Shown: positions 10,794-13,872 of the stretch, piece after piece
Layout: every line of letters begins with the position of its first letter
Numbering within the stretch: the first letter of the stretch is position 1
Assembly: GCF_026241095.1 (NCBI RefSeq)
Contig: NZ_JAPFGB010000028.1
Location: 1 to 64,000 of the forward strand
DNA length: 64,000 nucleotides
Direction: 5' to 3'
Origin: Saccharopolyspora sp. NFXS83
GTDB taxonomy: Bacteria > Actinomycetota > Actinomycetes > Mycobacteriales > Pseudonocardiaceae
The notes under the pieces: generated by a model
Told to the model about the DNA's origin: nothing
The model's input: the letters and a program-made list of their open reading frames with translations, nothing else
Databases searched by the model: none
Translations under genes and position numbers: made by a program

Positions 10794-11285
10794 TCAGGGG
10801 CCTGCGAACTCCTGGACCCAGTAGTGGCCGTAGCTGCTGTTCGGGTCGAAGGCGTGCCCCACGCCGATCCGGGTGTAGGCGCAGTTCTGGATGTTCGCCC
10901 GGTGGCCGGGGCTGGTCATCCACTGGTGGAACGTCGCGGCGGGCGAGGCGTTGCCCGCGGCGATGTTCTCCGCCGTCGCGCCGGTGAGCCGTGGCCCGGC
11001 GGCGTCGGAGTGGGCGAAGAAGTCGTGCACGGCCATGTCGATGGCGTGCGCCTGCGCCGAGCGCTCCAGGTCGGGGAACGGTGCCAGCGGCCCGCACCCG
11101 GCTTCGGCGCGGGCCGCGTTCGTGCGGTCCACGACCTCCGCGGTGACGACGTCCATCCGGTTCGCGTGCGCGGACGGGACGAACATCGCGGAGGCGCTCA
11201 GCAACGCGCACAGCAGGATCGGCCGGACCGGACTCCGCCAGCGGAAGGCGGGCGAGCCGGGAATCGACCGGGGGAAGACGAACAT
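10794..11285 (-). CDS. Secreted CAP-domain (SCP/PR-1-like) protein
   Basis: A 163-residue protein with an N-terminal signal peptide (hydrophobic PILLCALLSASAMFVPSAHA) and one CAP domain: RTNAARAEAGCGPL, AHAIDMAVHDFFAHSD, TAENIAAG, HQWMTSPGHRANI and a final GHYWVQEFA. These contain the conserved His and Glu residues of bacterial SCP-like proteins, which are secreted and often cell-wall associated. The ATG at 11285 follows GGAG. Two cysteines (GCGPL and QNCAYT) could form a disulphide. The role is unknown. Confidence 0.85.
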   Translation of the reverse strand: MFVFPRSIPGSPAFRWRSPVRPILLCALLSASAMFVPSAHANRMDVVTAEVVDRTNAARAEAGCGPLAPFPDLERSAQAHAIDMAVHDFFAHSDAAGPRLTGATAENIAAGNASPAATFHQWMTSPGHRANIQNCAYTRIGVGHAFDPNSSYGHYWVQEFAGP

Positions 11286-11370
11286 CCGCACCACTCCTCG
11301 AAGACAGCGGTCCCAGGTGCGGACAGTTCTAACGTGCTTTTCGGCGTGTCGGCCCGGCAATCCACGCAAC

Positions 11371-11958: not shown

Positions 11959-13038
11959 TCAGAGCCACTTGTTCCTGCGGAATATCTTGAACAGCGTCAA
12001 GCAGGCCAGCATCATCACCAGCAGCGTCGCCGGATAGCCGAATTTCCAGTCCAATTCGGGCATGACCTTGAAGTTCATCCCGTAGATCCCGGCGATCATC
12101 GTCGGGGTCGACACGATCGCGACCCACGCCGAGATCTTGCGCATGTCGGTGTTCTGCTGGAGCGTGATCTTGGCCAGGGTGGCGTCGACCAGCGTGGTCA
12201 GCAGCTCGTCGAAGGACGCCACCCGTTCCGAGACCGTCGTCAGGTGGTCCTCGACGTTGCGGAAGTAGGAGCGGACCTCCTCCGGCACCATCGGCGTGTA
12301 TCCCTCGGCCAGGCGCTGCAACGGCCGGGCCAACGGCATCACCGCCCGGCGCAGCTCCATGACCTCGCGCTTCATCAGGTAGATGTGCTCGGCCTCGATC
12401 TTGGTGCGCGGCGCGAAGACCGCCGCTTCCATGTCGTCGATGTCGTCCTGGATGGCCTCGGTGACCTCCAGGTAGGTGTCCACGACGTGGTCGGCGATGC
12501 CGTGCAGCACCGCGGCGGGCCCCAGCCGCAACTGCTCCGGATCGGTCTCCAGCTGCGCGCGCACCTGCCCGAGGCTGGCGTGCTTGCCGTGCCGCACCGT
12601 GATCACGAAGTCGCGGCCGACGAAGGCCATCAGCTCGCCGCTCTCGACGATCTCGCTGGTGGCCGTCAGCTTCTCGTTGGCGATGTAGCGCACCGTTTTG
12701 AGGACCATGAACAGCGTGCTGTCGTAGCGCTCCAGCTTCGGCCGCTGGTGCGCGTGCACGGCGTCCTCGACCGCGAGCTCGTGCAGCCCGAAGGTCTCGG
12801 CCAGCACGTTGAGCTGGGTTTCGTCCGGTTCGTGCAGGCCGATCCAGACGAACCCGGTGCCGCGCCGGCGCACTTCGTCGATCGCCTCGGCGTGCGACCA
12901 CGTGCCGGACAGGCGCACGCCGTCGACGTAGACGCCGCAGTCGATGACGTAAGCCGGAGGAGCGGCGGGAACCGGGGTGGCTCGGCCGATGTTGCGGGCC
13001 GCGCGGTTGCGCAGGCCGAGCGAGGGAAGGCTGGGCAC
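11959..13038 (-). CDS. corA: CorA-type Mg2+/Co2+ channel
   Basis: A 359-residue CorA protein. It has a large cytosolic alpha/beta funnel domain, then a C-terminal pair of transmembrane helices with the signature GMN at residues 320-322, between IYGMNF and FKVMPELDW, and a basic tail FRRNKWL. CorA forms a pentamer that takes up Mg2+. I start it at GTG 13038, behind GGAGG at 13044-13048; a longer in-frame start at 13098 falls inside a structured RNA and has no ribosome binding site. Regulation appears to occur through that leader RNA and a leader peptide (13052-13240). Confidence 0.93.
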   Translation of the reverse strand: MPSLPSLGLRNRAARNIGRATPVPAAPPAYVIDCGVYVDGVRLSGTWSHAEAIDEVRRRGTGFVWIGLHEPDETQLNVLAETFGLHELAVEDAVHAHQRPKLERYDSTLFMVLKTVRYIANEKLTATSEIVESGELMAFVGRDFVITVRHGKHASLGQVRAQLETDPEQLRLGPAAVLHGIADHVVDTYLEVTEAIQDDIDDMEAAVFAPRTKIEAEHIYLMKREVMELRRAVMPLARPLQRLAEGYTPMVPEEVRSYFRNVEDHLTTVSERVASFDELLTTLVDATLAKITLQQNTDMRKISAWVAIVSTPTMIAGIYGMNFKVMPELDWKFGYPATLLVMMLACLTLFKIFRRNKWL

Positions 13039-13051
13039 GGCGACCTCCAAA

Positions 13052-13179
13052 GGCGGGGAATCGGATCTGGGGCGATCTCGCACACCTGGACCGCGCATCC
13101 CCGCCGGCGCAGCGGGAACCCCGAAGGGCTCCGGCGCCTGGATTTGGGCCTAGCCGCAGGCCTTCCAGGCGGGGATGCG
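13052..13179 (-). ncRNA. Candidate corA leader RNA switch (three-way junction with competing segment)
   Basis: Read on the minus strand. A 12-bp outer stem pairs CGCAUCCCCGCC (13179-13168) with GGCGGGGAUGCG (13105-13094). Inside it, two hairpins abut with no unpaired junction bases. One is 13167-13139 (UGGA/UCCA plus GGCCU/AGGCC). The other is 13138-13106 (GGCGC/GCGCC, then a CCC-UUCG-GGG stem). The segment UCCCCGCC of the 5' strand is repeated at 13059-13052, 3 nt before the corA Shine-Dalgarno, so GGCGGGGA (13105-13098) can pair with either copy but not both. The two folds are mutually exclusive. I know of no named family that matches. Confidence 0.7.
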
Positions 13180-13221
13180 GTTGGTACTACTCGGAAGCGC
13201 GCTGTCGGCACTGCCGCTCAC
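13150..13221 (-). CDS. corA leader peptide (23 residues)
   Basis: A 24-codon ORF starts at GTG 13221, exactly 9 nt after AGGAGG (13231-13236). It begins MSGSADSALPSSTNR and ends IPAWKACG before UAG at 13150-13152. The last nine codons lie in the 5' strand and first hairpin of the three-way-junction RNA, and the stop codon touches that hairpin's loop. A ribosome finishing this ORF would melt the outer stem. The placement resembles leader peptides that control Mg2+ transporter genes (mgtL, corL in enteric bacteria), with no sequence similarity claimed. The 213 nt between it and the Nudix gene show no other feature. Confidence 0.65.
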   Translation of the reverse strand: MSGSADSALPSSTNRIPAWKACG

Positions 13222-13434
13222 AATCCCTCACCTCCTTCTGTCCGCCTCGCGCATCGGCGAGGTGGTTCGGACCGGCCAACGATTCACGATACTCGCCGTG
13301 CCCGGCGCGGTCGGCGGCGGTGCGGGGTGTGATGGGACACGGCGAAACGGGTGATTCTTCGGTCTCGGCGCACGGGAAAATCCCGGCTTTCGTCCGGATC
13401 GACCTGATCATTCCCTTTGTCTCATTGGCCTGGT

Positions 13435-13872
13435 TCAGCGCGGCGGGGAGGATCGGGGGAGTCGGCCCCACGCCCGGAGGCAGTCCGCGAGGCCGTCGGT
13501 CAGCCGATGCTCGGCGTCGAGTGTGGCAAAGGTCGCAGTATCCGCCCACATCGCGTCGGAGGCGTCGTCACCAGGGAAAAGGGCTACCTCGTTGGTCCGG
13601 CATGCGTAGTCGTGAATCTCGTAGGTACCAGTCGGGGTCGGGCGCAGCACGCGTCCGTGCAGGCCCTCGACGATCACGGAGAGTCCGGTTTCCTCCAGAA
13701 GTTCCCGGTGTACCGCCGAACGATCGGTTTCTCCGGCCTCCACTCGCCCACCGGGCACGGACCACTGCCCCCTGCCGGGGTCATGGGTGCGTAGTACCAG
13801 CAACAACCTGCCATCGGCGTCGTGGACGACCCCACCGACGCACCGGATCACTGGGCCGTTGGGTATGATCAC
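13435..13872 (-). CDS. Nudix hydrolase
   Basis: A 145-residue protein with one complete Nudix box, GGRVEAGETDRSAVHRELLE followed by ETGL, matching GX5EX7REUXEEXGU. Nudix enzymes hydrolyse nucleoside diphosphates linked to another moiety; this short form resembles MutT/NUDT-type proteins. The GTG at 13872 lacks a Shine-Dalgarno, but TACCCT (13881-13886) lies 8 nt upstream, so the mRNA may be leaderless. Substrate unknown. Confidence 0.88.
   Translation of the reverse strand: MIIPNGPVIRCVGGVVHDADGRLLLVLRTHDPGRGQWSVPGGRVEAGETDRSAVHRELLEETGLSVIVEGLHGRVLRPTPTGTYEIHDYACRTNEVALFPGDDASDAMWADTATFATLDAEHRLTDGLADCLRAWGRLPRSSPPR

Follow-up and report, generated by a model that had tools for sequence, protein, structure and literature searches.

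CorA is a main Mg2+ channel of many bacteria, and its expression in E. coli was long considered constitutive (PMC11552253). The same source describes an upstream open reading frame (uORF) within a switching leader of E. coli corA, for which both the involvement of Rho and a response to Mg2+ have been shown. In Salmonella, mgtQ lies between mgtC and mgtB and controls mgtB; its stems 1:2 and 3:4 exclude stem 2:3, and the ribosome-binding site of the transporter is freed by 2:3 and hidden by 3:4 (PMC8092293). Early Asp and Glu codons are needed; such acidic codons destabilise the ribosome, and translation of the uORF aborts on them (PMC8092293). The last codons of mgtP likewise lie in a stem arm (PMC3641672). 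A further RNA, the corA motif, is a riboswitch candidate with 325 representatives, all from Gammaproteobacteria and metagenomes (PMC6429828).

Here we describe a leader upstream of corA in a 64-kb stretch of actinobacterial DNA (the window, by which we mean the whole stretch) and in its relatives. By analogy, the described system closest in logic is Salmonella mgtQ. In both cases a short ORF overlaps stems that exclude one another, a property proposed for our leader, and the target is a Mg2+ transporter; mgtQ, however, has eight residues and lies inside an enteric operon, whereas the ORF described here encodes 23 residues, lies at the 5' end and is actinobacterial (PMC8092293). Stem 3:4 of mgtQ hides the transporter ribosome-binding site, while hiding of the corA site is here a proposal (PMC8092293). 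The leader shares with enteric corL and mgtL, which lead corA and mgtA, a uORF within a switching leader of, in the case of corL, corA itself and, as we propose, a stem that sequesters the Shine-Dalgarno sequence of the uORF and competes with another stem (PMC11552253). No sequence likeness to corL or mgtL was noticed, as judged without formal comparison, and the involvement of Rho and the response to Mg2+ have been shown for the enteric leaders (PMC11552253); for the actinobacterial leader we propose a response to Mg2+, and Rho may take part. Because no such likeness was noticed, the leader could provide an independent test of ribosome stability as a general gauge of Mg2+.

Compared by description, the leader resembles the gammaproteobacterial corA motif in being a structured RNA directly 5' of corA (PMC6429828). 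Within actinobacteria, the mycobacterial M-box/uORF2 leader of pe20 is also Mg2+-linked and carries a conserved uORF with a conserved proline, but there an aptamer acts and the gene is pe20, whereas the window has no M-box match (PMC12810186). As in the ilvB and whiB7/wblC attenuators, the position of the ribosome on the uORF would select between exclusive structures; ilvB, however, has runs of codons for the sensed amino acid and an intrinsic terminator, neither of which was seen here (PMC10272879, PMC13236596, PMC11550727). The available portions of PMC13236596, PMC10219788, PMC11550727 and PMC11109978 contain nothing similar to the corA leader. A search of journal literature, mostly open-access, found no report of an actinobacterial corA leader peptide.

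Results

Layout of the corA leader

The features of the leader are collected in Table 1. The initial annotation had described AGGAGG, a 9-nt spacer and a 24-codon ORF (13221–13150, minus strand), and each was found as described; AGGAGG lies at 13236–13231, and the frame opens with GTG at 13221 and closes with TAG at 13152–13150. By corA, the closest named relatives of the window belong to Saccharopolyspora, and the host is probably of that group. We estimate that the transcript starts near 13279. Of 86 non-redundant leaders, 74 have a −10-like GRGTANNNT motif 30–110 nt 5' of the uORF, against 1.6 expected from shuffles. A sigma-70 consensus scan of the leader gave no match and no terminator-like site was found in 12980–13440.

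Several features of the surroundings were also observed. The sequence CACCCGTT, a possible regulator site, occurs at 13346–13353 of the window (minus strand), about 55 nt 5' of the putative −10 region, and CACYCGTT precedes the uORF in 13 of 86 leaders, mostly from Saccharopolyspora relatives. Upstream of the leader, on the same strand, lies an ORF (13435–13872) that we take to be Nudix-like, and a further minus-strand ORF (10794–11369) presumably encodes a secreted CAP-domain protein. At many family loci (e.g. L077, L083, L096) corA is instead faced by a divergent gene, presumably MaoC-like, whose start region is conserved.

Table 1 Features of the corA leader in the window
Feature	Position	Strand	Remark
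Putative −10 region GAGTATCGT, TANNNT type	13286..13294	(-)	GRGTANNNT frequency in leaders
uORF Shine-Dalgarno AAGGAGGTGA	13228..13237	(-)	At least 8 contiguous bases of AAGGAGGTGA in 82/86 leaders
Segment A, part of uORF ribosome-binding site, complementary to B	13222..13232	(-)	Suggestive: own versus foreign A:B
uORF, leader peptide VSGSADSALPSSTNRIPAWKACG followed by stop	13150..13221	(-)	23 residues + TAG; purifying selection in frame on first part
Codons 6–15 (DSALPSSTNR), conserved part of peptide	13177..13206	(-)	Rich in AGT Ser codons across family
Segment B, codons 15–18 (R I P A), 5' strand of conserved stem	13168..13179	(-)	
Two inner hairpins, 13167–13139 and 13138–13106	13106..13167	(-)	Minimum-energy fold; not conserved
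Segment C, 3' strand of conserved stem	13094..13105	(-)	Pairing and RNAalifold
Segment D, GAUUCCCCGCC, directly 5' of corA Shine-Dalgarno	13052..13062	(-)	Can pair with C or with A
corA Shine-Dalgarno GGAGG	13044..13048	(-)	
corA, CorA-type Mg2+ channel, 359 aa, GTG start	11959..13038	(-)	Pfam PF01544, E 4.7e-61

The outer stem is conserved and the three-way junction is not

Segments B (13179–13168) and C (13105–13094) form a perfect stem in which all 12 pairs are made, just as had been annotated, and the TAG adjoins the loop of hairpin 1. The fold of 13240–13094 has a predicted energy of −75 kcal/mol (z −2.53), a value equalled by 4 of 200 shuffles. The stem still forms in the longer transcript 13279–13027, with a weaker z of −1.63 (10 of 200 shuffles). 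Since relatives keep both the uORF and the outer stem, the element in the window is more than a product of chance.

The initial annotation had placed these elements in a gap-free three-way junction. The minimum-energy fold of 13240–13094 does have zero unpaired junction bases, but the arrangement is not conserved, because the two inner hairpins are not. Hairpin 2 already differs within the same genus (L005), and the interval between B and C varies in length and fold in other genera. Given no structure beforehand, RNAalifold predicted the outer stem alone (seven pairs) from 50 sequences. We therefore rejected the junction as the functional unit, since its inner hairpins are not kept; it is incidental, and the unit is the uORF together with B:C.

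Conservation of the uORF in Pseudonocardiaceae

Upstream regions of corA were gathered from a search of 200 family genomes, 185 of which had a corA match, together with 80 named loci and 80 further stretches. Among the 15 genomes that had no match were all ten sampled from one genus, g3 (threshold E 1e-60). A uORF with a strong Shine-Dalgarno sequence and a PxST-type core lies 5' of corA at 155 of 163 Pseudonocardiaceae loci counted; some genomes are present among these loci as both a named and an unnamed copy, and 86 of the leaders are non-redundant. One locus, L112, was recognised through a looser regex only and is doubtful. The eight loci that yielded no call are L095, L098, L101, L104, L106 (masked), L179, L194 and L219, of which L095, L179 and L219 look like diverged versions.

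Loci L113–L139 stand outside this count. Two of them, L113 (Saccharothrix) and L121 (Lentzea), are more distant corA loci that have no uORF, and L128 comes with no upstream DNA. The remaining 24 come from families of the order other than Pseudonocardiaceae (Rhodococcus, Mycolicibacterium, Nocardia and similar genera) and showed no similar uORF; the regex made unrelated matches at L115, L131 and L137 and none at the other 21. When 60 related genomes were searched at the DNA level, matches were strong in the six that belong to the genus and in four further genera; the rest were weak and short. The peptide takes forms such as MSNDPHPASTSRVL in Saccharothrix, MSSGDSPLPS in Prauserella and Amycolatopsis, MSDPHGHDNATGCSSTRVP in Actinokineospora and MPTAPGCSSRRVP in Pseudonocardia, and its most conserved residues are P-x-S-T-x-R.

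Evidence for translation of the uORF

Over the first 9–13 codons, pN/pS in frame was 0.19, 0.26, 0.17 and 0.72 in four groups of 7–10 distinct sequences each, and in the other frames it exceeded 1 wherever it could be computed. Over the last nine codons it was 1.1–1.7, and selection on the uORF ends where B begins. Because pN/pS is low at first and 1.1–1.7 in the tail, the peptide matters until about the arrival of the ribosome at B and not beyond. The extent of the match between the uORF Shine-Dalgarno sequence and AAGGAGGTGA is given in Table 1; that of corA matches over 5 or 6 bases in 69 of 86 leaders. Judged by this pattern of evolution, a kept frame under in-frame selection, the uORF is probably translated into a leader peptide, as the annotation had supposed.

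Codon use in the conserved part is unusual. Of its Ser codons, 136 of 225 are AGT in Pseudonocardiaceae, as are 73 of 73 in the genus g119 (described below), whereas long GC3-rich ORFs at such loci have a background of 3.7% and 4.1%, respectively, and the window one of 1.8%. Third-position GC of the conserved part is 0.55 in Pseudonocardiaceae and 0.43 in g119; in the family it is 0.81 in the uORF tail and 0.83 in the early corA codons, and in g119 the tail has 0.70. Such rare codons may slow the ribosome or may reflect a constraint on the RNA. Asp, Glu and Pro residues are mildly enriched, at 2.5 per nine in positions 2–10 versus 1.6 in the tail. No run of codons for one amino acid, of the type found in amino-acid attenuators, was present in the listed peptides, and the peptides tried had no NCBIfam or Pfam match.

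Covariation of the B:C stem

To obtain a diverse set, we selected 60 of the 86 leaders by hand and then removed ten that were long or misplaced (L052, L059, L085, L090, L092, L189, L198, L200, L203 and L211), a choice that could favour the stem. In the resulting alignment of 50 leaders, 88.4% of the cells of B:C and its extension were paired. An RNA stem overlapping uORF codons had been claimed for the window, and across the alignment 10 of its 12 pairs had changed on both sides, with none of 500 shuffles reaching any of five B:C measures. Pairing fell to 23–47% when the partner strand was slid. Run separately on four family groups and on g119, RNAalifold recovered the stem every time, along with other helices. 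A mechanical search for C placed B wrongly in many rows, mostly of Saccharopolyspora, and the alignment was used instead.

We also scored the pairing of B with the downstream sequence of its own leader against dinucleotide shuffles. The mean z was −1.77 in the 36 leaders outside the alignment (15 of 36 at p≤0.05), −1.55 in the 50 aligned leaders (21 of 50) and −1.27 in the ten left out (3 of 10). Aligning the corA upstream regions of Pseudonocardiaceae, the check that the annotation had proposed, revealed both a kept uORF frame and stem covariation; neither a lack of compensatory changes nor a loss of the frame, two of the outcomes it had named as counting against the element, was seen. The third such outcome, a corA transcript starting downstream of 13094, is made less likely by the −10-like motif 5' of the uORF.

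In several family groups (L105, L143, L159, L185, L186 and others) a separate hairpin of the CGTCGT...ACGACG type is predicted between C and corA, directly before the corA ribosome-binding site; it is not evident in the window.

The leader extends beyond the family

A covariance model built from the 50-leader alignment matched 50 of 298 genomes of the order and 3 of 394 of the class, and the listed matches were all from Pseudonocardiaceae. There was always one place per genome, and all 30 order-level matches that were fetched had corA downstream. In the genome of the window, the one good match was the present copy (E 2.9e-11), the next having E 1.0. Restriction of the element to one family, which the covariance model would imply, was rejected, as uORFs with the same core precede corA in other families. 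Among 29 corA loci from other families, three had such uORFs (MDPSRPCSTDHPSAHRCSH, MDPSRPCSTGRSSCPAATASPGI and MVTTSSSPCSTSRSPLRRVLPR).

A pattern made of a Shine-Dalgarno sequence, a start codon and CCRTGYAGTAC was found in 25 of 296 genomes of the class, the reversed pattern giving 4 matches; 17 of the 27 loci had corA downstream and 10 did not. This pattern misses diverged forms, since the leader of the window is itself not matched. In genus g119, which we infer to be Streptomyces, a similar pattern was present in 67 of 121 genomes, in 2 of them solely through unrelated coding sequence (reversed pattern, 2 matches), and about 65 of the 121 thus carry a leader with the same core. Of 30 g119 loci fetched, 27 had corA and 3 did not. 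Across both searches corA was adjacent at 44 of 57 pattern loci, the other 13 being unrelated matches.

The g119 peptide begins MDRSRPCSTTRSS or MDPSRPCST... and stands before corA. Its stem is formed by B = GCUCUUCC and C = GGAAGAGC, with B four bases after AGTACC, the same place as in Pseudonocardiaceae. In 36 non-redundant g119 leaders 96.2% of B:C cells were paired, compared with 49–57% when slid; shuffles reached the observed values and are uninformative here, because the stem hardly varies within the genus. Between Pseudonocardiaceae and g119, four of seven shared B:C pairs, read by eye, had been exchanged on both sides. The stem in g119 is rewritten but held in place. The scope of the annotation was too narrow, as the same leader precedes corA in a second order.

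Competing pairings

With RNAduplex on whole regions, pairing of A with its own B was better on average than with foreign partners (z −0.63). As these runs were noisy, narrower segments were then used to compare the pairings that might compete with B:C. In a matrix of clades covering seven groups, the own A:B pair ranked first in its row for four, the exceptions being Actinokineospora, Amycolatopsis and g119; the own B:C pair did not rank first for three of the seven, and these have C sequences in common. C fitted the corA Shine-Dalgarno region slightly better than foreign sequences (z −0.50 and −0.56) or shuffled ones (−0.68), compared with −1.26 for B:C with shuffled C. Consensus folds computed without B joined C to the corA site in two groups, Actinokineospora and g119, and not in the other four, and in the 14 testable cases C paired with that site no better than other segments of the leader did. 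Segment D is a near-copy of B in the window, but as a family-wide copy of B it is not supported. On these comparisons A:B and C:D are candidate pairings.

Predicted effect on corA

In the free fold of the window B:C is formed and A is paired with D. With B or the stop masked, C pairs with D, as our proposal would have it, and 5 of the 10 bases around the corA Shine-Dalgarno sequence are unpaired, whereas a ribosome placed at the start of the uORF leaves all 10 of them paired. In these models the exposure of the corA site is opposite to the direction that we propose below. Three of the 86 leaders have no clear corA Shine-Dalgarno sequence and were left out of the exposure test. For the other 83 uORFs the mean opening energy was 6.5 with the ribosome at the start and 6.6 with it over B (+0.19 kcal/mol; higher in 47 of 83, p 0.43). 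Lentzea/Saccharothrix had the expected sign (+1.5, 10 of 12) and the Saccharopolyspora group, to which the window belongs, the wrong one (−0.74, higher in 5 of 20).

With opening energy null across the 83 uORFs, translational control as the general output finds no support in equilibrium folding. Exposure of the corA Shine-Dalgarno sequence as a universal output was likewise not supported, given the family-wide null and the wrong sign in the window's own group. The sequence 3' of C has a slight pyrimidine bias in terms of Rut-like composition. By analogy with E. coli corA, Rho is a possible output (PMC11552253).

Discussion

These data allow us to hypothesise how the leader acts. That it is a cis-regulatory leader of corA we regard as very probable. 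Comparison across genomes has shown the uORF, its in-frame selection and the B:C stem, whereas the sensing of Mg2+ and the output, on transcription or on translation, would follow by analogy. With its near-perfect Shine-Dalgarno sequence, the uORF would be read soon after it is transcribed. The codons just after PxST form strand B, which could pair back with A, in the uORF's own ribosome-binding site, or forward with C. A ribosome standing on B would free C, allowing C:D to form beside the corA ribosome-binding site. Where the acidic residue, the prolines and the rare AGT codons cause the first codons to be read slowly or abortively, for instance at low Mg2+, B would be left free, B:C would form and corA would be expressed. 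Efficient reading to the stop would keep ribosomes on B, release C and lower corA, whether by blocked translation, by Rho or by both. As a whole, including Mg2+ and the direction of the response, this translation-coupled attenuator, working like enteric CorL, MgtL and MgtQ, is at best an even proposition. Its evolutionary form, in which an old actinobacterial nascent-peptide sensor (PxSTxR and rare AGT codons) controls CorA through the B-strand switch and arose independently of CorL, MgtL and MgtQ, we put forward tentatively.

The same attenuator might instead answer to another signal, namely translation itself, through decoding of rare Ser codons, charged tRNA or a ligand acting on the PxST nascent chain. 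The strong conservation of P-x-S-T-x-R, with its Ser encoded by rare AGT, would fit such a signal, as would the mild enrichment of acidic and proline residues (2.5 versus 1.6 per nine). Against this, the sole target seen is a Mg2+ channel (30/30 model matches, 44/57 pattern loci), and we consider a signal other than Mg2+ rather unlikely. Still less probable is a plain cis-acting RNA, metal-sensing or bound by a protein, to which the uORF is secondary. A covarying stem is what such an RNA would have, as is the additional conserved hairpin that several groups have in front of corA, but in-frame selection and the exceptional uORF Shine-Dalgarno sequence speak for reading of the frame, and a search of the window with 4227 families of Rfam 15, the M-box included, gave no match at the gathering cut-off; the weak matches up to E 5 were unrelated.

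The frame could have arisen by chance, short ORFs being frequent where DNA is GC-rich, or, as its peptide is under selection, it could encode a small functional protein with no regulatory role. Neither would account for a covarying stem inside the ORF, a freely varying tail and a fixed place before corA, and the absence of NCBIfam and Pfam matches among the peptides tried also argues against a functional protein; we regard this explanation as highly improbable.

Should the independent origin of the translation-coupled sensor prove true, ribosome stability would have evolved as a gauge of Mg2+ on two or more occasions, one of them preceding the divergence of two actinobacterial orders. That both orders keep the leader peptide, with a stem rewritten in place, suggests that translation has a part in controlling corA there too.
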